A stretch of 64,000 nucleotides of DNA. It comes from Sulfolobus sp. E5-1-F. Lineage in GTDB: Archaea; Thermoproteota; Thermoprotei_A; Sulfolobales; Sulfolobaceae. The stretch spans positions 532,630 to 596,629 of the forward strand of contig NZ_CP045687.1 of assembly GCF_009601705.1 (NCBI RefSeq), read 5' to 3'. The notes beneath the pieces were generated by a model, which saw only the letters and a list, made by a program, of their open reading frames with translations, searched no databases and had not been told where the DNA came from. Positions 10,766-44,268 of the stretch are shown here, piece after piece (positions within the stretch are counted from its first letter, which is position 1; every line of letters starts with the position of its first letter). The translations under genes and the position numbers were made by a program.

Positions 10766-11683
10766 ATGCCTCTAGATTCTAGAATCAAAAAGTTACTAGA
10801 ATCGGGTTTTATTATACCTATAGGTAAAGCCTCGGTAGATGAGGTTAGAAAAATATTTAGGCAATTGGCATCAGCAGCACCCAAAGTTGAAGTGGGAAAG
10901 GTAGAAGATATAAAAATACCAGGTAGTGAAACCAATATAAATGCTCGAGTATATTTTCCAAAGGCTAACGGTCCCTATGGGGTTTTAGTATATTTTCATG
11001 GAGGAGGATTTGTTATAGGAGACGTGGAATCTTATGACCCATTATGTAGAGCTATTACAAATGCGTGCAACTGCGTTGTAGTATCAGTGGATTATCGGTT
11101 AGCCCCAGAATACAAGTTTCCTTCTGCTGTTATTGATGCATTCGATGCTACTAATTGGGTTTATAATAATTTGGAGAAGTTTAATGGAAAGATGGGAGTT
11201 GCCGTAGCTGGGGATAGTGCTGGCGGAAATTTAGCAGCAGTAGTAGCTCTTCTTTCTAAAGGGAAAATTAATTTAAAGTATCAAATCCTAATTTACCCAG
11301 CAGTAGGTTTTGATAATGTTTCAAGATCTATGATAGAATACTCTGATGGGTTCTTCCTAACTAGAGAGCATATAGAGTGGTTCGGTTCTCAATATCTGAG
11401 AAGCCCTGCAGACTTATTAGATTTTAGGTTCTCTCCAATTATAGCACAAGATTTGAGCGGATTACCTCCAGCCTTAATAATAACAGCAGAGTATGATCCG
11501 TTAAGGGATCAAGGAGAGGCTTATGGAAATAAATTACTACAAGCTGGAGTACCAGTTACTAGTGTGAGGTTTAATAATGTTATACATGGATTCCTTTCCT
11601 TCTTTCCGTTAATAGAGCAAGGAAGAGACGCAATAGGTTTAATAGGCTCTATTTTGAGACGTGTATTTTACGAGAAAATTTAA
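10766..11683 (+). CDS. HSL-family (family IV) carboxylesterase
   Basis: The 305-residue alpha/beta hydrolase cleaves short- and medium-chain carboxylic esters. The HSL-family signs are HGGG at residues 78-81 (oxyanion hole), the nucleophile elbow GDSAGG with Ser151, Asp244 in EYDPLRDQGEAYG, and His274 in VIHGF. The cap is the usual short N-terminal helical region. It is one of three paralogues in this window (with 33211-34137 and 37119-38054), all beginning with PLD at positions 2-4. It is followed by a T-rich run and an alcohol dehydrogenase on the same strand, so ester cleavage may be linked to oxidation of the released alcohol. No secretion signal is visible, so it probably acts in the cytoplasm. 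Confidence 0.9.
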   Translation: MPLDSRIKKLLESGFIIPIGKASVDEVRKIFRQLASAAPKVEVGKVEDIKIPGSETNINARVYFPKANGPYGVLVYFHGGGFVIGDVESYDPLCRAITNACNCVVVSVDYRLAPEYKFPSAVIDAFDATNWVYNNLEKFNGKMGVAVAGDSAGGNLAAVVALLSKGKINLKYQILIYPAVGFDNVSRSMIEYSDGFFLTREHIEWFGSQYLRSPADLLDFRFSPIIAQDLSGLPPALIITAEYDPLRDQGEAYGNKLLQAGVPVTSVRFNNVIHGFLSFFPLIEQGRDAIGLIGSILRRVFYEKI

Positions 11684-11759: not shown

Positions 11760-12770
11760 ATGAAAGCTGTTATTCTTCCAGCTCATAAACAAGGTTATAG
11801 AATCGAGCAGGTACCAGATCCTAAACCAGGTAAGGATGAGGTCATTATCAAGGTTAACAAGGCAGCCTTGTGCTATAGGGACTTATTACAAATAAAGGGA
11901 TTTTATCCCAGATCTAAATATCCGTTGATTTTAGGTCATGAAGTAGTGGGAACTATTGAAGAAGTCGGAGAAAACGTTAATGAGTTTATGAAAGGAGATA
12001 GAGTTACATCAATGCTTTTTGTTCCTGATTGGTCATGTGAATATTGTAAAAGGGGAGAAGAGGTTTACTGTAAGAATAATGTTCTATACGCTCAAGAACT
12101 AGATGGGTTTTTCGCAGAAAAAGCTAAAGTCAAGGCTAGTAGTCTAGTCAAAGTTCCTGAAGGCGTGTCCGATGAGGGAGCAGTTATAGTTCCATGTGTT
12201 GCAGCAATGGTTTATAGAGGTCTGAAAAAGGCTGGAATAAAGGAAGGGGAAATTGTATTGGTTACCGGAGCAAGTGGTGGTGTAGGTATTCATGCAATAC
12301 AAGTGGCAAAAGCTTTAGGGGCCAAGGTAATAGGAGTTACTAGTAGCGAGAGTAAGGCTAAGATAGTTTCCAAATTCGCTGACTACGTAATAGTAGGCGA
12401 GAAGTTCTCAGAAGAGGCTAAAAAGATAGGTGATGTTTCCATCGTTATTGAAAATGTTGGTCCCTATACATTAGAGGAAAGCATGAGGAGTTTAAGGAGT
12501 GGTGGTAAAATTATCCAGATCGGTAATTTAGATCCCTCTGTAACGTTCAATCTAAGGTTAGGCTATTTAATTCTCAAGGACTTAAGTTTAATGGGACATA
12601 TAGGTGCAAACAAGAAGGATATAATAGAGACTCTAAACTTAGTTAAGGAAGGGAAAATAAAGCCGGTAATTGGAAATGAGTTTAGGTTAGAGGAATTTGA
12701 AAAAGCTCTTGATTTACTTAGCAATAATAAAAATAGGTATGGAAAAATATTGATCTCAAACTCTCTCTAG
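11760..12770 (+). CDS. Zinc-dependent medium-chain alcohol dehydrogenase
   Basis: The 336-residue dehydrogenase starts at ATG 11760 (MKAVILPAHKQG); upstream in-frame codons are AT-rich leader and are left out. Catalytic zinc ligands are Cys38, His60 with Glu61, and Cys146 (VPCVAAM). The NAD(P) site is GASGGVG at residues 170-176. The structural zinc lobe reads Asp90-x2-Cys93-x2-Cys96-x7-Cys104, so the first of the usual four cysteines is Asp, as in some thermophile enzymes where an acid replaces it. The substrate is unknown; the position after an esterase suggests alcohols from esters. The 3' end overlaps that of the thiolase by 15 bp. Confidence 0.88.
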   Translation: MKAVILPAHKQGYRIEQVPDPKPGKDEVIIKVNKAALCYRDLLQIKGFYPRSKYPLILGHEVVGTIEEVGENVNEFMKGDRVTSMLFVPDWSCEYCKRGEEVYCKNNVLYAQELDGFFAEKAKVKASSLVKVPEGVSDEGAVIVPCVAAMVYRGLKKAGIKEGEIVLVTGASGGVGIHAIQVAKALGAKVIGVTSSESKAKIVSKFADYVIVGEKFSEEAKKIGDVSIVIENVGPYTLEESMRSLRSGGKIIQIGNLDPSVTFNLRLGYLILKDLSLMGHIGANKKDIIETLNLVKEGKIKPVIGNEFRLEEFEKALDLLSNNKNRYGKILISNSL

Positions 12771-13943
12771 CACTATCGCTCCTCCTTGACCTCCACCAAC
12801 ACATAGTGTTGCAACACCGTAATCCTTTCCTTCTAGTATCAGCTGTCTAGCCAGAGTGCCTACTAATCTAGCTCCAGTAGCTCCTAATGGATGCCCTATA
12901 GCAATAGCACCTCCTCTCTTATTTACTGTGTTCTCGTCTAACTCCAATTCTTTTATGGCATTTAATACTACCACAGCAAATGCCTCATTTATTTCCCATA
13001 AATCAACTTTTCTAATACTTAAATTTGCCTTTTCTAATGCCTTTTTAGAGGCTGGAACTGGACCCTTTCCCATTACTGCTGGAGGTACTCCCGCAAATCC
13101 AAAACTCTTAATCTTAGCCATTGGAGTTAGTCCATACTTCTTTAATGCATTCTTTGACATCAGAAGTACATAAGAAGCTCCTGAATTCAAAGGTGCTGAA
13201 TTTCCAGCCGTTATGACACCGTTAGGTTTGAACGCCGGAGGCAATTGAGCTAACTTCTCCAGACTTGTATCCGGTCTAACAGATTGATCTACATTTACTA
13301 GAGTCTTCTTTCCTTCAATTTCTACTTCTATAGGCAGTATTTCATCCTTGAAATATCCCTCTTGTATGGCTTTCCACGCTAATTGATGGCTCCTTAAAGA
13401 CCATCTATCCATTTCCTCCCTACTTATTTTAGCTTCTTCAGCTAGTTTCTCAGCAGTTAATCCCATAACATATCCTGTAGTCAAATCATACTGAATATAT
13501 TTACTATCAGTAAGAAACTTAGTGTTAATTTCAATGTGGGGATTATCAAACATTGGTGTTCTAGATAGTTTTTCCACTCCACCCGCTAATACTATATCAG
13601 CCATTCCAGTTGATATTTCCATGGCTCCTATAGAAACTGTGGTTAATGATGAAGCGCATTGCCTATCCACAGCCATAGTTGGTATGTTATATGGTAATCT
13701 AGCTGCGAAAACTTCATGCCTACCTCCAAAAGCCCACTGTTCACCTACTTGAAGTGCACATCCAGTGATTATCTCGTCTATCTCTTCAGCCTTAATTCCG
13801 TTTTTCTCAATTAACCTATTTATCACCATTCCAGCTAACTCTTCTGGTCTTATATTGTAGAATGGATCTTTTTGATAATCCTTACGAGAAAATCTCGTAA
13901 ACGCTGTCCTTGCATAATCTACTAGATATACATCCTCTAACAT
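12756..13943 (-). CDS. Acetyl-CoA C-acetyltransferase (thiolase)
   Basis: The 395-residue enzyme catalyses the reversible cleavage of acetoacetyl-CoA or 3-oxoacyl-CoA with CoA. All catalytic parts are present: the nucleophile Cys96 in DRQCASSLTT, NEAFA near 319, His351 in GHPLGATGA, and Cys381 in CVGGGQGGA. The length is that of classic thiolases. It is the last gene of an operon that runs R2lox (15813), acyl-CoA dehydrogenase, thiolase, with 39 bp between the dehydrogenase stop and this start. The thiolase step is the end of beta-oxidation and also of the 3-hydroxypropionate/4-hydroxybutyrate cycle of Sulfolobales. Confidence 0.93.
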   Translation of the reverse strand: MLEDVYLVDYARTAFTRFSRKDYQKDPFYNIRPEELAGMVINRLIEKNGIKAEEIDEIITGCALQVGEQWAFGGRHEVFAARLPYNIPTMAVDRQCASSLTTVSIGAMEISTGMADIVLAGGVEKLSRTPMFDNPHIEINTKFLTDSKYIQYDLTTGYVMGLTAEKLAEEAKISREEMDRWSLRSHQLAWKAIQEGYFKDEILPIEVEIEGKKTLVNVDQSVRPDTSLEKLAQLPPAFKPNGVITAGNSAPLNSGASYVLLMSKNALKKYGLTPMAKIKSFGFAGVPPAVMGKGPVPASKKALEKANLSIRKVDLWEINEAFAVVVLNAIKELELDENTVNKRGGAIAIGHPLGATGARLVGTLARQLILEGKDYGVATLCVGGGQGGAIVLERV

Positions 13944-15909: not shown

Positions 15910-16668
15910 TTATTTTATTCCACCTTTTATACTCTCTCCAGAATCTAACACGAAAACTTGTCCAGTGAGAGATTCTATCTTAAGAATTGCAGCAGTGAAC
16001 TCAGCTACTTCTTCTGGGTCGAGAATTTTACCCATTAATGTGAATTTTTCACCAAATTCCTTTTCACTCATCCCTAACACTTGAAACATACTTTCACCGA
16101 GTTTTGTTTTTACAAATCCTGGAGCTATGGCATTAACTCTTATTTTAGGAGCTAGTTCTAAAGCTAAATACTTTGTTAACGCAATTACTGCAGCTTTCAT
16201 AGCGCCATATATTGATAATCCGTAGGCTGGTGAGATTCCAGCAACTGATGCAACGTTGACAATAGCTCCTCCATCTCTCATTTCCTTTGCGAAACTTTGA
16301 GAGCAGTAAACTACAGATTTAAAGTCTGTTGAAATATGCTTTTCCAGAAGTTTATCATCTACGTTTAAAAAGGGAGAGTATAGTCCTAAGCCAGCATTAT
16401 TTATCAATATGTCAGCTACTCTATACCTATCGATGGTCGCTTTAAGTAAAGTTTCACATCCCTCCCTAGTGGAGACATCAGCTAGGATTCCAATAGCTTC
16501 TCCTCCATTCTCCTTAATGATCTTTACCGTTTCATTCATCTCCTCAACTCTCTTTTTAGCGTTCACTACAATTAAACTACCCTCACTCGCTAATCTCACA
16601 GCAATAGCCCTACCAATACCTCTACCGGAACCCGTTACTACAACAACCCTATTCTTTAGAGAGTACAT
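15910..16668 (-). CDS. Short-chain dehydrogenase/reductase
   Basis: The 252-residue SDR starts at ATG 16668 (MYSLKNRVVVVTG), where family members begin; a GTG at 16713 would add 15 atypical residues and overlap the alcohol dehydrogenase by 10 bp. The NAD(P) motif TGSGRGIG is at residues 12-19, NNAG at 90-93, and the catalytic Ser141, Tyr154 and Lys158 are in place (NVASVAG, YGAMK). It probably oxidises a secondary alcohol or reduces a 3-oxoacyl group. It follows the alcohol dehydrogenase at 16704-17750 on the same strand. R2lox is 97 bp further on but has its own promoter. Confidence 0.88.
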   Translation of the reverse strand: MYSLKNRVVVVTGSGRGIGRAIAVRLASEGSLIVVNAKKRVEEMNETVKIIKENGGEAIGILADVSTREGCETLLKATIDRYRVADILINNAGLGLYSPFLNVDDKLLEKHISTDFKSVVYCSQSFAKEMRDGGAIVNVASVAGISPAYGLSIYGAMKAAVIALTKYLALELAPKIRVNAIAPGFVKTKLGESMFQVLGMSEKEFGEKFTLMGKILDPEEVAEFTAAILKIESLTGQVFVLDSGESIKGGIK

Positions 16669-16703
16669 GAATGATAATAAAATTTTTAGCAATAAAAAAC
16701 TTT

Positions 16704-17750
16704 CTAATTCCACCTCACTATTGCCCTTATATGTATTCCTTTCTTTAAATTCTCATAAGCCTCATTTATCTTGTCTGGAGTATAAATATGCGAAACTAAC
16801 TTCTTAATGTCAATTTTCCCGGAAGATGTTAAGCTCACCAGTTCGGGTAAGTCAATTCTGGGTCTATAGCCTAAACTCCCTATAATGGTTATGCCTCTGG
16901 AGACAAACAATGTTACGGGGATTTGTGCCAATGTAGAGAATCCTCCTAGTCCAGTAACAACTATAGTTCCACCGGCTTTAACTATTTCCAATGATAATTT
17001 CAGATCTGGATAAGGTTTTGTCTCATACACTATGTCAGCACCATCTTCCAAAACTTCTAGAACTTTCGCTCTCGCATCGCTTTCATTAGCGTTAATAGTG
17101 TGAGTTGCACCTAACTCTTTAGCCTTCTTTAATTTGTTCTCATCTATGTCAACTGCAATGATCGGATTTAATCCAATTGCGTTGGCCAATTGTATTGCTG
17201 AAGAACCTACACCACCAGACCCCACTATAACAATACTCTTACCTGAAGTGGCATTCGCGCTCTTTAATGCGTTATAAGCAGTACCATATGCGCATGCTAG
17301 TGGTGAAGAATAATATGGATCAAGATTTTTGGCTAGAGGAATTACTGCTATCTCCGGGACAGTTAAATATTCGGCATGGCCACCATTAATACCAATTAGG
17401 CCTACTAGCCTTTTCGCATTTTCTTTACAATAATTCTCCTTACCACTTGCACAATATCTACATATACCACATGGCACAATCCAAGAAACTAGAACTGGAT
17501 CTCCCTCCTTTAGTCCATATGGGTTCTTAACGTTACTACCTATCTTCTCCACCCATCCGGCTATTTCATGACCAATTATAAATTCGTTGGGAAGTGGTCC
17601 CACCAGTTCACCACTTAATAGATGCAAATCACTATGGCATATTCCAGTTGACGCTACTTTCACTAAGATTTCCCCTTCTTTTGGAGTAGGATTAGGAACT
17701 TCTTTTATTTCTAATGGTAATCCATACCCCTTATATACTGCAGCCTTCAT
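16704..17750 (-). CDS. Zinc-dependent medium-chain alcohol dehydrogenase
   Basis: The 348-residue enzyme has full zinc sites. Catalytic ligands are Cys38 (GICHSD), His61 and Glu62 (IIGHEIAG) and Cys153 (LACAYG). Structural ligands are Cys94, Cys97, Cys100 and Cys108 (PCGICRYC...NYC). The nucleotide motif GSGGVG is at residues 177-182, followed by AVDID, whose acid at the end of the second strand favours NAD over NADP. It overlaps the longest form of the SDR and is probably co-transcribed with it. It is one of three zinc alcohol dehydrogenases in the window and is distinct from both. The physiological substrate is unknown. Confidence 0.9.
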   Translation of the reverse strand: MKAAVYKGYGLPLEIKEVPNPTPKEGEILVKVASTGICHSDLHLLSGELVGPLPNEFIIGHEIAGWVEKIGSNVKNPYGLKEGDPVLVSWIVPCGICRYCASGKENYCKENAKRLVGLIGINGGHAEYLTVPEIAVIPLAKNLDPYYSSPLACAYGTAYNALKSANATSGKSIVIVGSGGVGSSAIQLANAIGLNPIIAVDIDENKLKKAKELGATHTINANESDARAKVLEVLEDGADIVYETKPYPDLKLSLEIVKAGGTIVVTGLGGFSTLAQIPVTLFVSRGITIIGSLGYRPRIDLPELVSLTSSGKIDIKKLVSHIYTPDKINEAYENLKKGIHIRAIVRWN

Positions 17751-22892: not shown

Positions 22893-23480
22893 ATGTATAG
22901 GTATCCTAAAACTGAAAAGGGAAAGGAGTCATTAAATAAGATATTAAATGCTTCACTCGAACTAATTTCGGAAAGGGGATTCCTGAACACCAGCATAAGT
23001 GATATAACTAATAAGGCCGGTGTAGCTTATGGTTTGTTCTATTTCTATTTTAAGAGTAAACATGATATACTAGACGAGCTAATTAGAAGATTCAATACCA
23101 GCATGAGATATTATTTAAAGGTAAATACAATGGGTATACAAAACAGGATAGAAATGGAAAAGGAAGGTTTAGCTAAATTTCTAGAATGGATGGATCAGAA
23201 TAAAAAATACTACAAGGTATTTGTGGAGGCTCAGGTACATAGACCAGAGATGTATATATGGCATTTCACTAAATTGGCAGAGAGATATAAGATTGGTCTA
23301 AAGGAGGCTATGGATAGAGGAGAGATTGTTAAAGTGGATCCAGAATTATTAGCTTACGTGCTAATAGGAATTGGCGAGATGATAGGTAGAAGATATATTT
23401 TGTGGACAAATCAAGGATTAACCAAAAAACAATATGATGACTTGGCCATTCTCATAGAAAATATGCTAAGACCTAAGTAG
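22893..23480 (+). CDS. fadR: TetR-family regulator of the acyl-CoA gene island (FadR-like)
   Basis: The 195-residue protein has a TetR helix-turn-helix (residues about 22-66: SLELISERGFLNTSISDITNKAGVAYGLFYFYFKSK), the typical GLFYFYFKSKxDIL end of the domain, and an all-helical ligand-binding C-terminal part. A TetR regulator named FadR, which represses a fatty-acid degradation cluster and is released by acyl-CoA, is known from Sulfolobus acidocaldarius (from memory). Position inside an esterase and beta-oxidation island fits that role. A palindrome over its own start site suggests autoregulation. The gene name is by context and family only. Confidence 0.8.
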   Translation: MYRYPKTEKGKESLNKILNASLELISERGFLNTSISDITNKAGVAYGLFYFYFKSKHDILDELIRRFNTSMRYYLKVNTMGIQNRIEMEKEGLAKFLEWMDQNKKYYKVFVEAQVHRPEMYIWHFTKLAERYKIGLKEAMDRGEIVKVDPELLAYVLIGIGEMIGRRYILWTNQGLTKKQYDDLAILIENMLRPK

Positions 23481-23481
23481 G

Positions 23482-23925
23482 CTAAACAAGGAATTTTGTA
23501 TTTATTTTACTTGAGATATTAGCCATTACCACTGAAGCAGTAGTGTATCTAGCTAGATCGAAAAGGCTACCCTTCTTAAGTTTTATTGTACCAGATAACA
23601 ACGCTGATACTACTTGCAATTTACCGCTTATTATATCCTTCCATGAATTATAACTTGCTTCAAGTACGTATGGTGCATCAGCCTTGCTAATATCGGTGAA
23701 AAATTCTGTACCTTGGCATTTTCCATTATTTAGATATAGTTTCATTGCCAAAGTGTTAGTGCCCTTTACGCCTAAATAGTCCAACACTTGAGCAGGTATG
23801 TCGGTCGCTATGAATAAAATTGGTGATACCCACCCTTTCCCTGCCTCATTATATTCCTTGCTTTCATTTAGGAGTCTACACCATTCTTCTGCCCACTCCT
23901 TGCTAGGATACACAAACTCAGCCAT
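23482..23925 (-). CDS. SCP2-like sterol/lipid-carrier domain protein
   Basis: The 147-residue protein fits the SCP2 fold: an N-terminal helix (SKEWAEEWCRLLNESKEY), a run of strands (NTLAMKLYLNNGKCQGTEFF), and the typical VLEASYNSWKDIISGKLQVVSALLSGTIKLKKG, where the fold forms a hydrophobic tunnel and ends with small helices. Such domains bind acyl-CoA or lipids. It ends 1 bp after the TetR gene in convergent orientation, and is divergent from the thiolase-like gene 89 bp away. A carrier for acyl chains in the neighbouring pathway is a reasonable inference. Confidence 0.75.
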   Translation of the reverse strand: MAEFVYPSKEWAEEWCRLLNESKEYNEAGKGWVSPILFIATDIPAQVLDYLGVKGTNTLAMKLYLNNGKCQGTEFFTDISKADAPYVLEASYNSWKDIISGKLQVVSALLSGTIKLKKGSLFDLARYTTASVVMANISSKINTKFLV

Positions 23926-24014: not shown

Positions 24015-25157
24015 ATGATTGTAGGATTTGCTGGAAGATTATATAAAAATTATGAGAAAGATGGAATAGAGCTATTAAAGGAAACCATTGATGAGGCCCT
24101 AGAAATGGCAGGATTAAGCTATGCTGATATTAATGGGATAATGGCCAACATAGGCAGAGGTTCATTCCACGGTAATAAAACGTATTTAAATCCTCCAGCT
24201 CAAATAAGTGAATATTTTGGAATAAAGCCGAAAATTATAGACCATGTACAATATGGTGGGCCATCAGTATTATCAATGATATATAGAGCATATAAAGCAA
24301 TCAAGGCAGGGGATGCAGACACAATACTTTGTATACAAGGAGGAAAGATATCTCATTTGAGAGATAACCATTTTCAAAAAACAGATATAATTGATAGTCC
24401 CTTTGATGACTACATTAAGATTTATGAGCAGATGTCTCCAATATCGGATTATGCAATGGTAGCTTATAGGCATTCGAAACTCTTCGGTACCACTGATGAA
24501 CAAAGAGCAAAAGTCGCTGTAATGCAGAGATATAGTGCAAGTTATAATCCTAAGGCTCTATTTAGAAATCCTATTACAGTTAAGGATGTTTTACAATCCA
24601 GGATAGTTTCTTATCCTTTACATCTTCTTGAAATAGTATATCCAATTGATGGTTTTCACGTTTTTATAGTAAGTAGAAAAAGTAGTAAATCATCCCTTAG
24701 AAATATAGATATTTTAGCATATGGAGAGGCTCACTGGCCAAATCCACCAGCTGAATGGGATGATATAATATATACTCCAGCAATCGAAAGTGCGAAAAAG
24801 GCTTCATTTGACCTTAGCAAGGTAGATGCCTTTCAGCTTTACGACTCATTCACAATAACCGTAATGTTACAGATGGAGGATATTGGATTAGTTGAGAAAG
24901 GTAAGGTTGGACAATTTGTTGAATCTCATGACTTAACTTTCAAGGGTGATGTTCCTATCAATACTGGGGGAGGTAGTTTGAATACTGGTCAACCGGCTTA
25001 CATGAGTGGTGGAGTTATTTTAGAAGAAGCATTGCTTCAATTAAACGATATGGCTGATGGTCATCAAGTTAAGGGAGCTGACGTTATATTCTTAAATGGA
25101 ATTGGGTGGTGGAGTAGAAGGCATAGCGTAACTTTAGTATTGGGTGAGCGGAAATGA
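24015..25157 (+). CDS. Thiolase-like (SCP-x/Ltp-type) protein lacking the catalytic Cys and His
   Basis: The 380-residue protein starts at ATG 24015, 26 bp after a TTTTTTAATAG box; a TTG at 24012 would add one residue. It has the thiolase fold order and resembles lipid-transfer thiolases: DHVQYGGPSVLSMIYRAYKAIKAGDADTIL is the nucleophile region, but Gly81-Gly82 stand where Cys is expected, and near the end NTGGGSLNTGQPAYMSGG has no GHPxG histidine. These losses are also found in Ltp2-type aldolases, which cut steroid side chains together with a DUF35 partner. The next gene is a DUF35 protein overlapping by 4 bp. A retro-aldol or acyl-transfer role in a complex is likely, not classical thiolysis. 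Confidence 0.82.
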   Translation: MIVGFAGRLYKNYEKDGIELLKETIDEALEMAGLSYADINGIMANIGRGSFHGNKTYLNPPAQISEYFGIKPKIIDHVQYGGPSVLSMIYRAYKAIKAGDADTILCIQGGKISHLRDNHFQKTDIIDSPFDDYIKIYEQMSPISDYAMVAYRHSKLFGTTDEQRAKVAVMQRYSASYNPKALFRNPITVKDVLQSRIVSYPLHLLEIVYPIDGFHVFIVSRKSSKSSLRNIDILAYGEAHWPNPPAEWDDIIYTPAIESAKKASFDLSKVDAFQLYDSFTITVMLQMEDIGLVEKGKVGQFVESHDLTFKGDVPINTGGGSLNTGQPAYMSGGVILEEALLQLNDMADGHQVKGADVIFLNGIGWWSRRHSVTLVLGERK

Positions 25158-25510
25158 AAGATGATGAGATAAGAGAATTATACTTTAAATATTTCAATGA
25201 AGAGAAGCTACCATTCATTCAGTGTAATAAGTGTGGTTATAGGTTTTACTATCCAAGAGTATTTTGCCCTAAATGTCATTCTTCAGATATAGAAGTTAGA
25301 TTTAGTAAAGGACATGGTAAAATATTTGCCATGACTAAAATTTATAGGAAAGACGGTAGTCATGTTGTTTATGGAATTGTAGAGCTAGAAGAGGGATTTA
25401 GAATGTATTCCAATATAGTAGAGGAGAGTCAAGCTGACATTGGAAAGAGGGTTGAATTAATATTTAAGGAGATAAACGGCAAGAAGTATCCCCTATTTAG
25501 GGTAGTCTAG
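25154..25510 (+). CDS. DUF35 OB-fold/zinc-ribbon acyl-CoA-associated protein
   Basis: The 118-residue protein has a rubredoxin-like zinc ribbon (Cys24, Cys27, Cys38, Cys41 in CNKCGYRF and CPKCHSSD) followed by an OB-fold of the DUF35 family (GHGKIFAMTKIYRKDG, YGIVELEEGFRMYSNI). DUF35 proteins bind acyl-CoA and serve thiolase-superfamily enzymes as partners. In archaea they bridge acetoacetyl-CoA thiolase and HMG-CoA synthase; in actinobacteria they complete Ltp2 aldolases. It overlaps the thiolase-like gene by ATGA, so translation is coupled and a 1:1 complex is likely. Confidence 0.9.
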   Translation: MKDDEIRELYFKYFNEEKLPFIQCNKCGYRFYYPRVFCPKCHSSDIEVRFSKGHGKIFAMTKIYRKDGSHVVYGIVELEEGFRMYSNIVEESQADIGKRVELIFKEINGKKYPLFRVV

Positions 25511-25578: not shown

Positions 25579-27237
25579 GTGGAGATAATAAAAGGTTTTC
25601 CTTCAACTATGATGGACGACTATCAACTTAATGTTGTACAAATATTGGAACATGCGGGTAAGTGGTATGGTGAGCAAGAAATCGTCTCTAGGAGGAAAGA
25701 TAATACAATTTTAAGATACAATTATAGAGAAGCATTTAGAAGGGTTAAAAAACTCGCAAGTTCACTTAAGTCTTTAGGTGTTAAGGTTGGTGACAGAGTA
25801 GGTGTATTAGAATGGAATACACATAGGTTTTACGAATTATACTTCGCAATACCCGCAACTGGTGCAGTACTGTTAGAGCTAAATCCTAGACTTCACCCAC
25901 TTCAATTGGCAAAGATTATCAACCACTCTAAAGTATCATTTTTGTTCTTAAACGAGGACTTCATTCCCCTAGTTGAGAGTATATCAAATAATATTCCATC
26001 AGTTAAGAAGTTCATATTAATTTCTGATTTAGAGAAGACACATCAAGGTAATTATTACGATTACGAGAAACTAGTAGAGGAAGGCGATGAGGAATACGAG
26101 ATACCAATGTTTGATGAGAAGACAGCGTGCTATGCAGCATATACTACTGGTACTACAGGAGATCCCAAAGGCATATATTATTCACATAGATCGATAGTAT
26201 TAAATACATTGGTAATATCACGTAATATTACAATAGATGATACTTTTATGCAATTAGTACCCATGTTCCATGTAAATGGTTGGTTGGGATTCATGGCTGC
26301 TACACTAGTTGGAGCAAAGCTTGTGTTACCGGGAAGATATACTGCTGAGAATCCGAAACCATTAGTTGACTTAATGATTAACGAGAAAGTAACAGTTACA
26401 GCTGGTGTTCCAGAAGTGTTTAGCTCTATTTTAAATTACTTAAGAAATATGGAAAACAAGCCATTATTTGTAAATTCCAGAATACTTATAGGCGGAAGTG
26501 AGCCTCCTCTGAGCTTAGTTTTAGGTCTAATGGAGTTTGGATTTCAAGTTGGTCAAGGGTACGGTGCTACCGAAACCACTCCTTCAGTTGCGGGTAGTGT
26601 TATTAAACCCAAAATAAGGGAGAAATATTCTGAAAAGGATATGCTAGATTTGTTAAGAAAACAAGGTATACCAGCTTTTGGAATTGATATAAAGGTTGTT
26701 GATCCATCAACTGGTAAAGAGGTACCACATGACGGTAAGACTGTAGGAGAATTATGGATCAGAGGGCCGTGGATCGCCTCATCCTATTATAATGATCCCA
26801 GAACAATGGAGTCGTTTGTTGGTGATGGTGTAGATAGATGGTGGAGAAGTGGCGATTTAGCTGTAGTAGATGAGCTAGGTTATATTAAAATAGTAGATAG
26901 AATAAAGGATGTTATAAAGAGCGGAGGAGAATGGATAAGTACTGTAGATTTGGAGAATCAATTAATGACTCATCCTGCTGTAGCTGAGGCTACAGTCATA
27001 GGTGTTCCTCATCCCAAGTGGGGAGAAAGACCATTAGCGTTTGTTGTGTTAAGGCAAGGATTCGAAAATAAGGTTAGCAAGGAGGAACTATTAAGGCATT
27101 TAAGTCAGAGGTTTGCTAAGTGGCAGCTACCTGACGATATAATATTTGTTAAGGAGATTCCTAAGACTAGTGTAGGTAAATTCGATAAGAAGGTTTTAAG
27201 GGAAAAATATAAGGATTTCTTTACTAGTGGTAGATAA
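25579..27237 (+). CDS. Medium/long-chain acyl-CoA synthetase (AMP-forming)
   Basis: The 552-residue adenylating enzyme turns a carboxylic acid, ATP and CoA into acyl-CoA. The P-loop-like motif YTTGTTGDPKG is near residues 189-199, the adenine motif GYGATETTP near 329, RSGDLAVVDELGYIKIVDR contains the catalytic Asp and hinge, and the C-terminal Lys is in KTSVGKFDKK. The start is GTG 25579, about 27 bp after a CTTAAATATAG box. GGEW (IKSGGEWIS) before the C-terminal domain is typical of medium-chain ligases. It heads a same-strand pair with the acyl-CoA dehydrogenase at 27274, preceded by the thiolase-like/DUF35 pair. The chain length is not readable. Confidence 0.9.
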   Translation: MEIIKGFPSTMMDDYQLNVVQILEHAGKWYGEQEIVSRRKDNTILRYNYREAFRRVKKLASSLKSLGVKVGDRVGVLEWNTHRFYELYFAIPATGAVLLELNPRLHPLQLAKIINHSKVSFLFLNEDFIPLVESISNNIPSVKKFILISDLEKTHQGNYYDYEKLVEEGDEEYEIPMFDEKTACYAAYTTGTTGDPKGIYYSHRSIVLNTLVISRNITIDDTFMQLVPMFHVNGWLGFMAATLVGAKLVLPGRYTAENPKPLVDLMINEKVTVTAGVPEVFSSILNYLRNMENKPLFVNSRILIGGSEPPLSLVLGLMEFGFQVGQGYGATETTPSVAGSVIKPKIREKYSEKDMLDLLRKQGIPAFGIDIKVVDPSTGKEVPHDGKTVGELWIRGPWIASSYYNDPRTMESFVGDGVDRWWRSGDLAVVDELGYIKIVDRIKDVIKSGGEWISTVDLENQLMTHPAVAEATVIGVPHPKWGERPLAFVVLRQGFENKVSKEELLRHLSQRFAKWQLPDDIIFVKEIPKTSVGKFDKKVLREKYKDFFTSGR

Positions 27238-27273: not shown

Positions 27274-28386
27274 ATGAGTAAGAATGAGGATGAATTAGAA
27301 GAGTACAGAAATAAGGTAAGGGAATGGATAAGGAATAATGTACCCGAGGAGGTGAGGACTAAGGGAGACATGGCCCCTCCAGATGTCTTAAGGGAATGGC
27401 AAAGGAAAATATATGAGGCCGGATATTTAGGGGTCTCTTGGCCAAAGGAATATGGAGGATGGGGAGAAAATCCAATTAAAGAGATAATAGTTAGAGAAGA
27501 ATTCGCTAAGGCAGGAGTACCCTATGCGACAGTTGGTCTAGGAGTATCCGTAGTTGGTCCGGCAATTATTCTTAATGGTACTGAGGAACAAAAGAAGAAA
27601 TACATAAGGAGAATATTAACGGCTGAGGATATATGGTGTCAAGGTTTTTCTGAACCTCATGCTGGATCAGATTTGGCTGGCATAAAGACTAAAGCTGAGG
27701 ATAAGGGAGACTACTTTCTAGTTAATGGACAGAAGATATGGAGTAGTTATGCGCATTTGGCTAACTATTGCCTTCTCTTGACTAGAACTGGCGATGTATC
27801 AGAGAGACACAAGGGACTTACCATGCTTATAGTTGATATGAAAAGCGAGGGAATAAGAGTAAGTCCAATCAAGCAAATTACTGGGAGATCAGAATTTAAC
27901 ACAGTATATTTTAATAACGTAAAGGTTCCTAAGGAGAACGTAGTTGGCAAAATAGGTGAAGGATGGAAAGTAGCGATGTCCACGTTAAATTATGAGAGGC
28001 TTAACATAGGAACAATATTGTTTACAGTAGAAAGACTCATAAGGGATTTGTCAATCAATAATGAGCAATTATTTAATATAGCAGAAGATATAATTGCGCT
28101 AAAGTCATTTTATAAAAGAATATTGGAAAGGTTAAAGAAAGGATATATTGCAGGTCCAGAGGCTGCAGTAATAAAGTTAGTAGCTTCAGAAGCAATACAG
28201 AGGGTTTACGAAAATGCCATGGCTAATGCTGAAATAGAAGGACTAGTTATGGAAAGAGAACCTGAATTTAGACCAGAGATAGCGTATGGCTTATTAGCCT
28301 CTAGAGCAATAACAATAGCTGGCGGTACTTCTGAGATATTGAGGAATTTATTAGGGGAAGTCGTCCTAGGATTACCAAAAGGTTAA
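27274..28386 (+). CDS. Acyl-CoA dehydrogenase
   Basis: The 370-residue flavoprotein catalyses the first oxidation of beta-oxidation and gives enoyl-CoA. Typical blocks in order: YLGVSWPKEYGGWG, the FAD-binding WCQGFSEPHAGSDLAGIKT, YFLVNGQKIWSSYAHLANYC, the mid-domain GEGWKVAMSTLNYER, and the C-terminal IAGGTSEILRNLLGEVVLGLPKG. The N-terminal part resembles FadE enzymes for larger or branched acyl groups. A GAGGAGGT ribosome-binding site lies 9 nt before ATG 27274, and the acyl-CoA synthetase ends 36 bp before, so the two are an operon. An electron-transfer partner is not in the window. Confidence 0.9.
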   Translation: MSKNEDELEEYRNKVREWIRNNVPEEVRTKGDMAPPDVLREWQRKIYEAGYLGVSWPKEYGGWGENPIKEIIVREEFAKAGVPYATVGLGVSVVGPAIILNGTEEQKKKYIRRILTAEDIWCQGFSEPHAGSDLAGIKTKAEDKGDYFLVNGQKIWSSYAHLANYCLLLTRTGDVSERHKGLTMLIVDMKSEGIRVSPIKQITGRSEFNTVYFNNVKVPKENVVGKIGEGWKVAMSTLNYERLNIGTILFTVERLIRDLSINNEQLFNIAEDIIALKSFYKRILERLKKGYIAGPEAAVIKLVASEAIQRVYENAMANAEIEGLVMEREPEFRPEIAYGLLASRAITIAGGTSEILRNLLGEVVLGLPKG

Positions 28387-28417: not shown

Positions 28418-30409
28418 TTATTCTCCTTTAAATTGCGGTTTTCTTTTTTCCAAGAAAGCTCTTACTCCCTCCTCTACATCTTTAGTTGTAAATAGAAGTC
28501 CAAATAGTGTTGACTCTAGAGTTTGTCCAGTCCAGATATTAGATTCATAGCCTAACTCTATAGCTAATTTAGCTGCTAATAGGGATATTGGAGATTTTTC
28601 TGCTATTTTTAAGGCTACTCTTCTCACTTCTTCCTCAAATCTATTGGCTGGAACTACTAAATCCACTAATCCCATCTTATAAGCATCTTCAGCTGAGACC
28701 ATATCACCAGTATATATCATTAACTTTGCCCTTCCCTTACCAACTAGTCTAGGTAGTCTTTGTGTTCCTCCAGCTCCAGGTATTATGCCTATATTTATTT
28801 CAGGTTGTCCCAGTTGTGCTACCTCAGAGGCTATCCTTATATCACAAGCCATGGCTAACTCAAGCCCACCTCCTAATGCAAACCCATTTATTCCCGCAAT
28901 TATTGGCTTAGTATAAAGAGCAATTTTGTTCACTACATTCCTTAAAGTCCTTAACCTTATTACGTCTATTGGTCTTAGCGTAGTGAATGAACCTATATCG
29001 GCTCCAGCTGAAAAAGCTCTACCATTGCCAGTAATTATAACAACTCTCACATCATTTCTGCTTTCCAATTCATCTAGACTTTTGTCAAGTTCACTAACTA
29101 ACTCTGGATTTAGTGCGTTTAATCGTTCGGGTCTATTTAATATAATCCATGCTAATGGTGGTTCAATACGTAAGATAAGTGTATTTAGTTTCTTCTCCTC
29201 AATCTTTCCATACTGGTAAAATCCGCTCCCTGTCTTTATTCCTAACTTATTCTCATTTACCATTTGGGTTATCAATGGATCTGGTGAGAAAACATTATAA
29301 CCAGATAATGCCTTCAGATCCTCCAAAGCCTTAAGGACATTATCAACACCTAACTCGTCTGCATATTGGAATATTCCTTTTGGAAGTCCTAATCCTAATC
29401 TCACGCCTAAATCTATATCATCCCTACTCGCTATTCCTTCTCTTAATAGTCTAGCAGCCTCATTTACACCTCCAGCCAAAATTAATGCGGGATTTAATTT
29501 ATCAGCCAATTCCTTTGGCAACTCTGGTTTAACATATTTACCAGGCGCTGGATAAGTGTAGAAACCCTTACCGGTCTTCACACCCAATTCATTATTTTTA
29601 AACTTCTGCTCTATCAAACTGCATATAGGTATATTATCTCTTATTCCTAGTTCTTCTCTGGACTTCGAAACGTAATATGCTACATCTATTCCCGTGTAGT
29701 CTATTAATTCAAATACTCCCATTGGAAATCCCAATTTATATCTGGCAACTGCGTCAACTTCTCTGTAGTCTGCCACTTTCTTCTCAACTAATACGCATGA
29801 GGCAATATTTATCTGACCTAAAATCCTGTTTACAACGTATCCTGGTACATCCTTATTTATCATTATTGGCTGTTTGCCAAACTTCTTAGCTAAATCGTAA
29901 GTTATTTTAGCAGTCTCATCACTAGTTTTATCCCCTTTCATTACTTCTACAAGTTGCATTAATACTGGAGGATTGAAGAAGTGCATTCCCACAACTTTAT
30001 CTTGTCTCTTAGTAGCTTCAGCTATTTTAGTAATTGGTAGGCTACTTGTATTTGTAGCCAATATTGCATGGGGTGGTAATAATTCGTCAAGTTTGGAGAA
30101 AACTTGTTTCTTTATGTCAATTCTCTCGGTTGAAGCTTCTATCGAAAAGTCTGCATCGCTTACTGTCTTATCCAATCCCACTATGGTAGTAATCCTTGAC
30201 ATTATGGTATCTACACTCTCTTTTAACTGCCCTCTCTCTTGTAACTTACTTAAACTCCATCTTATCCTTTCTAACGCATTGTTAAGTATATCTTGAGATA
30301 TATCGCTTAAGTACACCTTATATCCAGAAATTGCTGCAACTTCAGCTATTCCATGTCCCATTGTTCCTGCTCCTACGACGAGAATCTTTTTAATATCTTC
30401 TACCTTCAT
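28418..30409 (-). CDS. 3-hydroxyacyl-CoA dehydrogenase / enoyl-CoA hydratase fusion
   Basis: The bifunctional enzyme has about 663 residues. The N-terminal dehydrogenase has the NAD motif VGAGTMGHGIAEV at residues 12-24, MHFFNPPVLMQLVEV with the catalytic His, and two C-terminal helical repeats (GFYTYPAPGKY and GSGFYQYGKI ends). A crotonase domain starts at about 400, with both catalytic acids kept (GGGLELAMACD; PEINIGIIPGAGGTQRL). The domain order is reversed relative to bacterial FadB. Homologous fusions in Metallosphaera act as crotonyl-CoA hydratase/(S)-3-hydroxybutyryl-CoA dehydrogenase of the 3-hydroxypropionate/4-hydroxybutyrate cycle (from memory). I start at ATG 30409; ATG 30463 would add 18 hydrophobic residues not expected in this family. 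Confidence 0.93.
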   Translation of the reverse strand: MKVEDIKKILVVGAGTMGHGIAEVAAISGYKVYLSDISQDILNNALERIRWSLSKLQERGQLKESVDTIMSRITTIVGLDKTVSDADFSIEASTERIDIKKQVFSKLDELLPPHAILATNTSSLPITKIAEATKRQDKVVGMHFFNPPVLMQLVEVMKGDKTSDETAKITYDLAKKFGKQPIMINKDVPGYVVNRILGQINIASCVLVEKKVADYREVDAVARYKLGFPMGVFELIDYTGIDVAYYVSKSREELGIRDNIPICSLIEQKFKNNELGVKTGKGFYTYPAPGKYVKPELPKELADKLNPALILAGGVNEAARLLREGIASRDDIDLGVRLGLGLPKGIFQYADELGVDNVLKALEDLKALSGYNVFSPDPLITQMVNENKLGIKTGSGFYQYGKIEEKKLNTLILRIEPPLAWIILNRPERLNALNPELVSELDKSLDELESRNDVRVVIITGNGRAFSAGADIGSFTTLRPIDVIRLRTLRNVVNKIALYTKPIIAGINGFALGGGLELAMACDIRIASEVAQLGQPEINIGIIPGAGGTQRLPRLVGKGRAKLMIYTGDMVSAEDAYKMGLVDLVVPANRFEEEVRRVALKIAEKSPISLLAAKLAIELGYESNIWTGQTLESTLFGLLFTTKDVEEGVRAFLEKRKPQFKGE

Positions 30410-30492
30410 CGGATATATATAAAGCGAAATAAGGTTAAAAAGTAATCTCAATTCATTCTTCATACAATTTTAAATATTTTACCCATTTTATA

Positions 30493-33210: not shown

Positions 33211-34137
33211 ATTCCTCTAGATCCAGAGGTAAGAAAGTTTTTAGACTACTTTTATAAGTATAACGTTTTAGATTTTTCAAAATATTCATTACAAGAAATT
33301 AGGGAAAAACTCAATAAGCTTTTAGCAGAGGCAACTCCGAAGGATCCAGTATATAAGATTGAAGATAGGAAAATTAGAGGTTCAGAAACTGAGATACCTA
33401 TAAGAATATATTATCCAGATGATAAAAAGGCACATCCCATTATTCTCCACTTTCATGGTGGCGCTTGGATTTTAGGCAGTATCGAAACTGAGGATAGTGT
33501 GTCTAGAATATTAGCTAATTCTTGTAACTGTATAATTATTTCAGTTGATTACAGACTTGCGCCAGAACATAAGTTTCCCGCAGCCGTAACTGACTGCTTC
33601 GATTCGATTAAATGGGCTTATGAGAATGCTGAAAATATAGGTGGAGATAAAAATAGGATTGCAGTTTTCGGGATTAGCGCTGGAGGCAACTTAGCAGCAG
33701 TCACATCTATTCTTTCCAGAGATCATGGGATAAAATTAAAGGCACAAGCACTTGTGGTTCCATTCGTATATCTAGATTTAGCCTCTAGATCAATGACTGA
33801 ATATAGAAAAGGTTATTTCTTGGACATCAATGTACCAATAGATTACGGAGTAAGAATGTACATAAGAGACGAAAGGGATATCCTTAATCCTATGTTCGTC
33901 CCCTTAATTGCAGAAAATCTTTCAAATTTACCACAAGCTATAGTTGTGACTGCAGAATTTGATCCCCTAAGAGATCAGGGAGAAGCTTACGCTAAAAGGT
34001 TAATGGAATCCGGAGTTTCTACTTTAAGCTTTAGAGTGAATAGTATGGTTCACGCTTTTTTAGGTTCACCTAACGTGAGTAGATTAGTTACAATTATGAT
34101 CGGTTCTGCGCTAAAGGATATCTTAACAAGGGGTTAA
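33211..34137 (+). CDS. HSL-family esterase with an apparent AUU start
   Basis: The 308-residue reading starts at ATT 33211 and continues PLDPEVRKFLDYFYKY, the paralogues starting ATG-PLD. The frame is fully open to the stop, but the first ATG, GTG or TTG in it is GTG 33499, which would remove 96 residues including the oxyanion HGGA (LHFHGGAWILGS). With the ATT start all parts are present: nucleophile GISAGG with Ser156, Asp in EFDPLRDQGEAY, and His in MVHAF. The oxyanion motif is HGGA rather than HGGG. If ATT is not used, the gene is a pseudogene by loss of its start. The next gene starts 5 bp after it. Confidence 0.8.
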   Translation: MPLDPEVRKFLDYFYKYNVLDFSKYSLQEIREKLNKLLAEATPKDPVYKIEDRKIRGSETEIPIRIYYPDDKKAHPIILHFHGGAWILGSIETEDSVSRILANSCNCIIISVDYRLAPEHKFPAAVTDCFDSIKWAYENAENIGGDKNRIAVFGISAGGNLAAVTSILSRDHGIKLKAQALVVPFVYLDLASRSMTEYRKGYFLDINVPIDYGVRMYIRDERDILNPMFVPLIAENLSNLPQAIVVTAEFDPLRDQGEAYAKRLMESGVSTLSFRVNSMVHAFLGSPNVSRLVTIMIGSALKDILTRG

Positions 34138-36171: not shown

Positions 36172-37125
36172 ATGAAACTACTAAGTTTTATTAAGGATAA
36201 TAGGGTGAGAAGTGGTGTCTTAGTTAACGATGAATATATAGCAGATCTGAATACCTCTTGTTACCTAATGCTGATTGAAAAAGGGGAAGACGAGCAGTTT
36301 GTTGAGAGATATTGTAATGCAATAGTCCCCCCAGATATGTTAGGAGTACTTCAAGCTGGGGATCTGGGATTAGAATTTATTAAGAAAATTTTGGAATGGT
36401 CAAAGAAAAGAAATGACGTTCTTTACAATATTAAGCAAGTTAAGCTAAAGGCACCCCTATTAAGGGCTAATATGTTAAGGGATTTCCTAGCATTTAAAGG
36501 TCACGTTGAGGCTACTTATAAGAGAAGAGGACAGTCGATACCAGAAGAGTGGTTTAAGATACCTATTTATTATAAAGGGGATCCAGCAATATTTTATGGG
36601 CATTTAGAAGAAGTACCTTGGCCAAAGTACTCTAATCACGTTGACATAGAGCTAGAAATAGCTGCTATAATATATAAGAAAGGAAAGGATATTGATAGGA
36701 GGAATGCTAGAGAGTATATACTAGGTTTTACTATTTTCAATGATTTTAGCGCAAGGGATATTCAAATGGCTGAGATGAAAGGTTTACTAGGTCCTGCAAA
36801 GGGTAAAGATTTCGCAAATGGATTGGGACCTTGGATAGTAACTAAAGACGAATTGCCGGATATTAAGGGATTGAGAGTTTACGCCAAGGTCAATGACGAA
36901 GTCTGGTGTGATACAAGAGCAGAAGATATGCAATGGAGTTTTGAAGACATGATTGCATATGTGTCTCAAGATGAGTACATTAGATCTGGCGATGTTTTCG
37001 GAAGTGGTACTGTAAGTGGATGTACTGGGTTAGATATAGGCAAATCGTTAAAGCCAAATAGCAGTATAGAACTATACGTGGAGAAGATAGGGATTCTGAA
37101 AAATATCATAGTAAAAAATCAGTAA
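36172..37125 (+). CDS. Fumarylacetoacetate hydrolase (FAH) family protein
   Basis: The protein has about 317 residues from ATG 36172 (MKLLSFIKDNRVRSG), where family members start; TTG 36148 would add eight residues. The FAH C-terminal domain holds metal ligands Glu160 and Glu162 (VDIELEIAAII) and Asp191 (FTIFNDFSARDIQ). GPAKGKDFANGLGPW and GSGTVSGCTGLD are further conserved blocks. Family members cleave C-C bonds of beta-diketones or hydrate unsaturated oxo-acids. It overlaps the convergent esterase by 7 bp at its end. The substrate is unknown. Confidence 0.85.
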   Translation: MKLLSFIKDNRVRSGVLVNDEYIADLNTSCYLMLIEKGEDEQFVERYCNAIVPPDMLGVLQAGDLGLEFIKKILEWSKKRNDVLYNIKQVKLKAPLLRANMLRDFLAFKGHVEATYKRRGQSIPEEWFKIPIYYKGDPAIFYGHLEEVPWPKYSNHVDIELEIAAIIYKKGKDIDRRNAREYILGFTIFNDFSARDIQMAEMKGLLGPAKGKDFANGLGPWIVTKDELPDIKGLRVYAKVNDEVWCDTRAEDMQWSFEDMIAYVSQDEYIRSGDVFGSGTVSGCTGLDIGKSLKPNSSIELYVEKIGILKNIIVKNQ

Positions 37126-38054
37126 AAATTGTTAAACATTTTTCTAATCGATGATGCAATATGATGTATTGCTTCTCTTCCGGTATCTAAATACTCATAG
37201 AAGCTCACGAAACCGTGTATCATGCCGTTATATCTTAGGCTTATCGCCTTTACTCCGTTTGCTTTTAGTTTATGAGCATACATTTCACCTTGATCTCTCA
37301 AGGGATCATATTCGGCTGTAATTACTAACGCAGGAGGGAGGTTTTGTAGTTCAGCCAATATTGGCGAAGCTAAAGGATTATAATAATCGCTATCGTCTTT
37401 AACATATTGCTTATTGTACCATAAAATTCTCTCATAGGTTAGGAAATAACCATCACCATAATTATACATTGAGGGAGACGAGTCTAACATGTTAACTACG
37501 GGATATATCATTATTTGATATTTCACAATGTTTTCTTTATTATCTCTATCGAGAATACTAACTACTGCGGATAAATTTCCGCCTGCACTATCTCCCGCGA
37601 CTGCAATTCTTGACGTATCTATTGATAACTTTCCTCCATTATGAGCTATCCACTTAACTACGTCGTATGCATCATAAACTTGTGTGGGGAATTTGTGTTC
37701 TGGAGCTAATCTATAATCAACCGAGACTACTATGGTATTTGATAACTTTGAAATTAGCCTACATATACTATCATGAGTATCTAAATTTCCGTAAACGAAA
37801 CCTCCTCCATGATAATACACTACAGCGGGGAGGTTTTCCCTTTGGCTTGGAAAATACACTCTTATTTTTATATCCCCATTCCTAACCGGGACAATCATGT
37901 CACGAATATTATATAGCTCAACTTTTTCGTTATTGAACATCTTTATAAAGAGATCATTTCTGACTTTTCTGAACTCTTGGGGTGTTAAAGGAGTTGTAGG
38001 TAATAGTGAGTTCATTTTAGTTAAGAGGTCTTTAACCTGTGGATCTAGTGGCAT
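37119..38054 (-). CDS. HSL-family (family IV) carboxylesterase
   Basis: The 311-residue paralogue of the esterases at 10766 and 33211 has the complete set: HGGG at 82-85, Ser156 in GDSAGG, Asp250 in EYDPLRDQGEMY and His280 in MIHGF. It starts MPLDPQVKDLL. It precedes nothing on its own strand; the lactonase gene lies 35 bp upstream and reads the same way, so they may share a transcript, lactonase first. Both break esters or lactones. Confidence 0.92.
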   Translation of the reverse strand: MPLDPQVKDLLTKMNSLLPTTPLTPQEFRKVRNDLFIKMFNNEKVELYNIRDMIVPVRNGDIKIRVYFPSQRENLPAVVYYHGGGFVYGNLDTHDSICRLISKLSNTIVVSVDYRLAPEHKFPTQVYDAYDVVKWIAHNGGKLSIDTSRIAVAGDSAGGNLSAVVSILDRDNKENIVKYQIMIYPVVNMLDSSPSMYNYGDGYFLTYERILWYNKQYVKDDSDYYNPLASPILAELQNLPPALVITAEYDPLRDQGEMYAHKLKANGVKAISLRYNGMIHGFVSFYEYLDTGREAIHHIASSIRKMFNNFY

Positions 38055-41283: not shown

Positions 41284-41285
41284 TT

Positions 41286-42584: not shown

Positions 42585-42743
42585 AGTAATGAGTTGTGAG
42601 GTGAACATTAAAAATTTTGATATTGGTTAACTCCCTAGAAATATATCACTTGTAAATCTTATTTTTAAAAACGTATCTAACAATTAATGCTAATTAGATG
42701 GAAATCTAAATGAACTTTCAAGATTAGCTAAAGGAGTTAAATA

Positions 42744-42763
42744 AAAGTTATACAAATAACTTT
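42744..42763. promoter_or_regulatory. Perfect inverted repeat at the glpK start
   Basis: AAAGTTAT and ATAACTTT are exact inverted repeats with a 4-bp spacer. They end 3 bp before the glpK ATG and overlap the expected start of transcription, downstream of the GTTAAATAAAAG box. It is a candidate operator for a glycerol-responsive regulator. Confidence 0.55.
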
Positions 42764-42766
42764 CTG

Positions 42767-44266: not shown

Positions 44267-44268
44267 TT

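Follow-up and report, generated by a model that had tools for sequence, protein, structure and literature searches.

The window analysed here is a stretch of 64,000 nucleotides (G000:C1:532630-596629) in the 2.54-Mb genome of a member of the Sulfolobales. Within it lies a pair of overlapping genes, one for a protein of the thiolase fold which lacks the catalytic cysteine and histidine of thiolases, the other for a DUF35 protein, and both are surrounded by genes of fatty acid metabolism. The features of this region are given below, with the ATG at 24015 coding for residue 1 of the thiolase-fold protein. Residue equivalences refer to Sal and Ltp2, two bacterial aldolases acting on steroid side chains.

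22893..23480, plus strand: TetR-family regulator of the fatty-acid region (Pfam TetR_N)
23482..23925, minus strand: SCP2-type lipid-binding protein (profile match to 2cx7; a neighbour in seven of seven genomes of the genus)
24015..25157, plus strand: thiolase-fold protein of 380 amino acids without the catalytic Cys and His, proposed to be the catalytic part of a retro-aldolase acting on acyl-CoA (Pfam, PDB and Foldseek matches)
24255..24260, plus strand: Gly81-Gly82 at the site of the nucleophilic Cys of thiolases, Gly82 corresponding to Sal Gly89 (alignment, 32 of 32 archaeal relatives)
24840..24848, plus strand: Tyr276-Asp277-Ser278, with Tyr276 corresponding to the base Tyr302 of Sal and Tyr294 of Ltp2, and Ser278 at the place of the Sal acid Cys304 (alignment)
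24990..25001, plus strand: Gln326-Pro-Ala-Tyr329, with Gln326 corresponding to Sal Gln352 and replacing the GHP histidine, and Tyr329 a candidate proton donor (alignment)
25122..25124, plus strand: His370, kept in 31 of 32 relatives, putative second candidate proton donor, located beside the oxyanion-hole loop (alignment)
25154..25510, plus strand: DUF35 zinc-ribbon/OB-fold protein of 118 amino acids, Sso2509 (Trf) orthologue, proposed scaffold or pocket subunit
25579..27237, plus strand: AMP-forming acyl-CoA ligase of the long-chain type (closest solved relative the Thermus long-chain acyl-CoA synthetase 1ult, E 1e-142)
27274..28386, plus strand: acyl-CoA dehydrogenase (Pfam)
28418..30463, minus strand: fused 3-hydroxyacyl-CoA dehydrogenase/enoyl-CoA hydratase (Pfam 3HCDH and ECH_1)

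The thiolase-fold reading frame runs from the ATG at 24015 to the stop codon ending at 25157, with an in-frame TTG found three bases upstream of the ATG. It shares an ATGA overlap with the DUF35 reading frame, as a preliminary description of this DNA, prepared from the sequence, had reported. Pfam assigns the Thiolase_C_1 domain to the first protein (E 2e-28) and zf-ChsH2 (E 5e-10) and OB_ChsH2_C (E 1e-6) to the second. The nearest NCBIfam model for the thiolase-fold protein is an 'acetyl-CoA acetyltransferase' subfamily, which is reached with 210 bits against a cut-off of 421 bits, so that an automatic thiolase label for 24015-25157 would mislead. The 31 Sulfolobaceae genomes contain 38 complete genes of the aldolase-like clade, and in 37 of these cases the DUF35 gene follows directly downstream; the single exception, in G020, has its DUF35 gene elsewhere in the genome. 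The same 22 genomes contain both genes, in one case as fragments, and the same nine contain neither. The DUF35 protein of the window stands alone, with neither a MaoC fusion nor a MaoC gene beside it, unlike the characterised aldolases, in which a MaoC hydratase is typically joined to the DUF35 partner or encoded next to it, and in the archaeal loci a MaoC-like reading frame was seen near the paralogue L073 only.

The alignment places Tyr80-Gly81-Gly82-Pro83 at the nucleophile site, replaces the HDxF motif by YDSF (Tyr276 to Phe279) and the GHPxG motif by GQPAY, and shows no cysteine in the C-terminal CxG loop. The three residues which define thiolases of EC 2.3.1.9 and 2.3.1.16, the nucleophilic cysteine, the GHP histidine and the CxG cysteine, are thus all missing; loss of the first two had already been noticed in the preliminary description, which had also named a displaced cysteine in the catalytic place as one finding that would refute its aldolase reading. 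This possibility can be ruled out, as the only cysteine of the whole protein, Cys106, is located in a strand and is leucine or valine in 10 of 32 relatives. Five residues, namely Gly82, Tyr146, Tyr276, Asp277, and Gln326, are unchanged in all 32 archaeal relatives, which makes it clear that the altered site is a product of neither chance nor decay. Position 278 is serine in 27 and alanine in five of these proteins, position 329 tyrosine in 28 and phenylalanine in four. With such a set of residues thiolysis through a cysteine-bound acyl-enzyme is impossible by the known mechanism. Databases would label the protein a thiolase or acetyl-CoA acetyltransferase; with no nucleophilic cysteine, GHP histidine or second cysteine and a lone cysteine which is not conserved, a conventional thiolase whose active site has been remodelled is hardly credible.

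A search of the PDB by sequence returned Sal (9myr_A) as first match to the thiolase-fold protein (E 4e-50, and E 5e-75 with the family profile), followed by 4u4e and then by cysteine thiolases and Ltp2. Foldseek, run with an AlphaFold2 model of moderate quality (pLDDT 76, with values under 50 at residues 322-324 close to the active site), likewise gave the Sal-Shy structure 9myr_A on top (E 9e-31), a match which speaks for the fold and not for the chemistry since all thiolase folds are similar in TM. CtSal, which together with the DUF35 protein CtShy is the bile-acid side-chain aldolase of Comamonas testosteroni (PMC12329534), is 33% identical to the archaeal protein. It also has glycine for the nucleophilic cysteine, the Tyr-Asp motif, glutamine for the GHP histidine, a conserved Tyr165 and a DUF35 partner. 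In the numbering of the Sal paper the alignment with 9myr equates Gly89 with Gly82, Tyr165 with Tyr146, Tyr302 with Tyr276, Asp303 with Asp277, Cys304 with Ser278, and Gln352 with Gln326. The archaeal protein differs from CtSal in having YDSF instead of YDCY, by which the acid cysteine of Sal is lost, in the additional Tyr329, and in a genomic context without steroid genes. The partners differ as well, the window protein being a stand-alone DUF35 protein with a C4 zinc site whereas CtShy is fused to MaoC and has a C3H1 site. TcLtp2, which acts with the DUF35 protein ChsH2 on sterol side chains (6ok1), resembles the archaeal protein in its lack of the cysteine, the tyrosine base in the YDxF motif and the DUF35 partner, and its acid Tyr344 falls near Tyr329 in gapped sequence alignments. 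It is, however, only 25% identical, has YDHF and a three-residue deletion in the GHP loop, and stands outside the group formed by Sal and the archaeal proteins.

This grouping comes from a maximum-likelihood tree of 68 proteins, in which cysteine thiolases are separated from every protein with the GG and YD features (100/100). The archaeal clade groups with Sal and a second, small set of archaeal proteins (96/95) and Ltp2 joins next (92/86), which brackets the clade by two enzymes of proven retro-aldol activity. Sal as immediate sister of the clade has weak support (89/68). The preliminary description had taken the actinobacterial Ltp2-DUF35 aldolase as precedent. Common grouping with Ltp2 and Sal supports its interpretation in kind, but sequence, fold and tree all make Sal, which also has glutamine at the histidine position, the nearer one, and Ltp2 was dropped as the closest precedent.

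Replicons of proteobacteria, actinobacteria and haloarchaea commonly carry more distant relatives, at about 32-35% identity. Every member with an annotated record that was examined is accompanied, next door or at a short distance, by a gene for a DUF35 or OB-fold protein, often together with genes for a MaoC hydratase, an acyl-CoA ligase or a short-chain dehydrogenase (SDR), and the class with the GG and YD features hence extends far beyond the two steroid enzymes that have been tested. The uncharacterised Sphaerobacter thermophilus thiolase 4u4e and its proteobacterial and haloarchaeal relatives share YDSF, GG and relatives coupled to DUF35 with the archaeal clade but keep the histidine in HPG and form a separate clade. 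On Sulfitobacter (L122, 6043-9998) and Mesorhizobium (L133, 2983-6966) plasmids an 'acetoacetate-CoA ligase', a Sal-like protein with YDCY, a DUF35 protein and MaoC are encoded in one run beside sugar transport genes, which is likely a bacterial aldolase operon unrelated to steroids. A further subclade, 41-45% identical and with a divergent DUF35 protein, was found in Vulcanisaeta and two Sulfolobaceae (L076, 1729-2931; L081, 9634-10791; L082, 9264-10421), where the L081 and L082 copies adjoin genes for acyl-CoA dehydrogenase, ligase and hydroxyacyl-CoA dehydrogenase. In the regions L073-L077 a cysteine thiolase with its own DUF35-like protein and a Cys-less aldolase-like/DUF35 pair are arranged head to head (e.g., L074, 8103-9290 and 9444-10613), with genes for a MaoC-like protein and a CoA ligase close by.

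Taken together, the two proteins probably form one heteromeric enzyme, consisting of the thiolase-fold and the DUF35/Trf subunit, which would carry out aldol cleavage of 3-hydroxyacyl-CoA esters or the reverse synthesis, with Tyr276 as the base and a proton donor other than cysteine. In the proposed mechanism Tyr276 would remove the proton of the 3-hydroxyl group, the C2-C3 bond would then break to yield an aldehyde or ketone and the enolate of acetyl- or propionyl-CoA, and a proton would be returned by Tyr329, His370 or water. No covalent acyl-enzyme would be formed because there is no nucleophilic cysteine. The DUF35 subunit would cap the pocket for CoA and substrate, as in Sal-Shy and Ltp2-ChsH2. 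For the role of Tyr276 the sequence comparison gives good support, as the tyrosine of the YDxF motif is the proven base which takes the 3-hydroxyl proton in Sal (Tyr302) and in Ltp2 (PMC12329534).

Among the points against an aldolase, besides the lack of MaoC, the weak sister link to Sal, the ordinary thiolase of the window (12756-13943) and the moderate quality of the model, is the acid. Sal needs Cys304, and its C304S mutant is inactive (PMC12329534); this essential residue is replaced by serine or alanine in the archaeal proteins and no residue clearly takes over, given the phenylalanine found in place of Tyr329 in four of 32 relatives. Ltp2 uses Tyr344 as acid, which the Sal paper places at Gln352 of Sal (PMC12329534) and thus at Gln326 of the archaeal protein, while HMMER aligns it with Tyr329 across a three-residue gap. 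Of the retro-aldolase activity put forward in the preliminary description, the Cys- and His-less fold, the coupling to DUF35 and the fatty-acid setting argue for the proposal, and serine at the position of the Sal acid argues against it. The pair is best described as aldolase-like, by its sequence, and not as a proven member of the Ltp2/Sal type of aldolases.

The lack of an obvious proton donor, together with the inactivity of Sal C304S and the SCP2 lipid-binding protein encoded next door, would also fit a pair which has lost its chemistry and merely binds acyl-CoA or lipid as a carrier, sensor or scaffold. We consider this unlikely, as the five invariant residues are kept from Sulfolobales to Thermoplasmata, Marsarchaeota and Nitrososphaeria, a constraint not expected of a pocket without activity, and as the operons with SDR and CoA ligase look catabolic. 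Equally improbable is that the scaffold serves another CoA reaction independent of cysteine, such as the decarboxylation of malonyl-type CoA esters or a C-acylation. The former is reported for TbSLP, a YDCF protein without the cysteine which decarboxylates malonyl-CoA slowly and weakly (PMC12329534), and the latter from PhlABC, in which PhlC is a relative in fold that is accompanied by a DUF35 protein. The closest enzymes that have been tested are nevertheless aldolases, and CtSal does not decarboxylate malonyl-CoA (PMC12329534).

The partner subunit of the proposed aldolase-like enzyme has a history of its own. 6htj, the structure of Sso2509 of S. solfataricus, is the closest match to the DUF35 protein of the window, and the 83% identity together with the same gene position identifies it, at the level of sequence, as the orthologue of Sso2509, or Trf. 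The exact Trf sequence of 124 amino acids is encoded in the relative G015 at the same position and with an ATGA overlap with the thiolase-like gene. Sso2509 is described as translation recovery factor which releases aIF2 from mRNA 5' ends (PMC3936769; structure 6htj, PMC6996347): it is recovered together with aIF2 during outgrowth and binds aIF2-gamma, in vitro it sets the 5' ends of mRNA free, and a deletion strain shows slower outgrowth (PMC3936769). Binding of RNA is reported to be micromolar (PMC6996347). Binding of aIF2-gamma and mRNA release are published for Sso2509 only, and in the accessible text of the two papers the overlapping thiolase-like gene is not mentioned. One RNA used in the tests of Trf is called '2508sh' (PMC3936769); if it derives from the reading frame Sso2508 it would, judged by gene order, correspond to the transcript of the thiolase-like partner.

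From these reports one might take the DUF35 gene to code primarily for a translation factor releasing aIF2 from mRNA, with an incidental link to the thiolase-like gene. Several findings render this very doubtful. In S. solfataricus itself, trf overlaps the gene of a thiolase-like protein which is 92% identical to that of the window, and the nine Sulfolobaceae genomes without the DUF35 clade are exactly those without the aldolase-like gene, which would be unexpected for a general factor. Furthermore, most of the proposed RNA-binding residues vary in the nine closest orthologues, with R65, Y70, and K105 each kept in four of nine, whereas Y85 and the cysteines of the zinc site show no variation in 42 of 42 DUF35 proteins linked to aldolase-like genes. 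As the pair is most likely one enzyme splitting acyl-CoA, the role of Trf needs a second look. Most simply, Trf would serve the aldolase-like enzyme as its DUF35 subunit; in view of the reported aIF2-gamma binding and the deletion phenotype it may have a second role in translation.

The substrate of the window enzyme is probably a lipid-derived 3-hydroxyacyl-CoA, as genes for a long-chain ligase, an acyl-CoA dehydrogenase, a hydratase/dehydrogenase and an SCP2 protein adjoin the pair. The fused protein 28418-30463 is a possible source of 3-hydroxyacyl-CoA. A Pfam search with the SCP2 protein gave no match, and it was a profile of its orthologues that recognised sterol carrier protein 2 (2cx7, E 1e-15) in the PDB; with the Pfam matches of the other neighbours this bears out the setting among beta-oxidation genes with an SCP2 protein that had been read from the sequence before. 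The pair is accompanied by the regulator, the SCP2 protein, the long-chain ligase, the acyl-CoA dehydrogenase and the fused protein in seven of seven genomes of the genus, the ligase gene always following the pair. A similar fatty-acid region is found in S. acidocaldarius (PMC6449355). The lipid context is not universal, as an orthologue of 73% identity is located elsewhere in two genomes of another genus, and fatty-acid oxidation does not need the Cys-less pair, since the window also encodes an ordinary cysteine thiolase (12756-13943). Steroid genes were not seen in the archaeal neighbourhoods (+/-9 kb), for which reason a steroid or isoprenoid substrate was dropped, and the analysis gave no sign of the preference for branched or isoprenoid chains that the preliminary description had suggested.

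Elsewhere in the window, genes read from the sequence as GlpD-like oxidoreductase, glycerol kinase, and glycerol facilitator, together with a CoxG-like protein recognised by Pfam, lie at 40840-45156, and reading frames named esterases in the same manner lie near them at 10766-11683, 33499-34137, and 37119-38054. Glycerol genes and esterases together suggest a region for lipid or ester breakdown. At 38089-39033 a protein of the phosphotriesterase family (PF02126) is encoded, which is the family of the Sulfolobus lactonases.

The genome also encodes a paralogue of 64% identity (G000:C1:2305310-2306458, locus L063), which belongs to an operon better conserved than the setting of the window copy. 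This operon consists of a FabG-like SDR gene, usually a gene for an AMP-forming acyl-CoA ligase, the aldolase-like gene and the DUF35 gene, and recurs in Sulfolobaceae, Ferroplasma, Acidiplasma, other Thermoplasmata, Marsarchaeota and metagenome-assembled Nitrososphaeria. The operon SDR is present in 21 of the 31 Sulfolobaceae genomes, i.e., in 21 of the 22 with the aldolase-like gene. An SDR encoded in the window (15910-16713) is only 31% identical and was ruled out as its equivalent. In eight of 19 Sulfolobaceae genomes, against 0.22 expected, a nucleoside hydrolase gene is found no farther than 6 kb from the operon, a count to be read as about three independent cases because six of the eight come from one genus. 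In Ferroplasma the only nucleoside hydrolase gene and the only gene of the nucleoside 2-deoxyribosyltransferase family of the genome both adjoin the operon, and two operon copies stand beside genes which, from their Pfam matches, we tentatively take to serve pentose oxidation. Some 40 kb from the operon, an additional gene for a nucleoside hydrolase is fragmented in three genomes of the genus (G000:C1:2348384-2349278, G013:C1:442442-443320, and G015:C1:2858319-2859213). As the DeoC Pfam family PF01791 does not separate deoxyribose-phosphate aldolase (DERA) from other aldolases, TIGR00126 was used to search for deoC, and no gene above its cut-off was found in any of the 31 Sulfolobaceae genomes, compared to 10 of 14 control genomes.

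The best conserved operon of the archaeal family points to 3-hydroxy acids derived from sugars or nucleosides rather than to isoprenoids. 2-Deoxyribonate is such a 3-hydroxy acid. By the combined action of SDR, ligase and retro-aldolase, the paralogue operon could convert 2-deoxyribonyl-CoA to acetyl-CoA and glyceraldehyde, a hypothesis from gene context which concerns the paralogue and not the window copy. A genetically supported deoxyribonate route of Klebsiella michiganensis employs CoA synthetase, hydroxyacyl-CoA dehydrogenase and thiolase (PMC6365646), a gene set resembling the archaeal SDR, ligase and thiolase-like operon. There, the thiolase is proposed to cleave 3-keto-deoxyribonyl-CoA (PMC6365646), whereas the archaeal Cys-less enzyme would cleave the 3-hydroxy ester directly. 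Quite tentatively, one may think of an archaeal retro-aldolase family whose ancestral operon formed an oxidative deoxyribose pathway of acidophiles, leading from deoxyribose via deoxyribonate and the 3-hydroxyacyl-CoA ester 2-deoxyribonyl-CoA to acetyl-CoA and glyceraldehyde, with copies later recruited to lipid catabolism and with the window-type DUF35 subunit being Trf.

The fold, the partnership with DUF35 and the conversion of cysteine to glycine and of histidine to tyrosine are already known from Ltp2 and Sal. New are the archaeal clade with its changed acid residue, the structure of its operons and the identity of one subunit with Trf; a literature search, in which subscription journals and preprints were thinly covered, yielded no published description of this clade. 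If the proposal is true, acyl-CoA aldol cleavage by a converted thiolase would be a metabolic module of archaea too, working with a different proton donor and reaching beyond the breakdown of steroids by bacteria. Acidophilic archaea would gain a route for 3-hydroxy acids, possibly including deoxyribose from DNA, and Trf would become doubtful as a dedicated translation factor and would rather belong to an enzyme, with moonlighting in translation as a side role at most.
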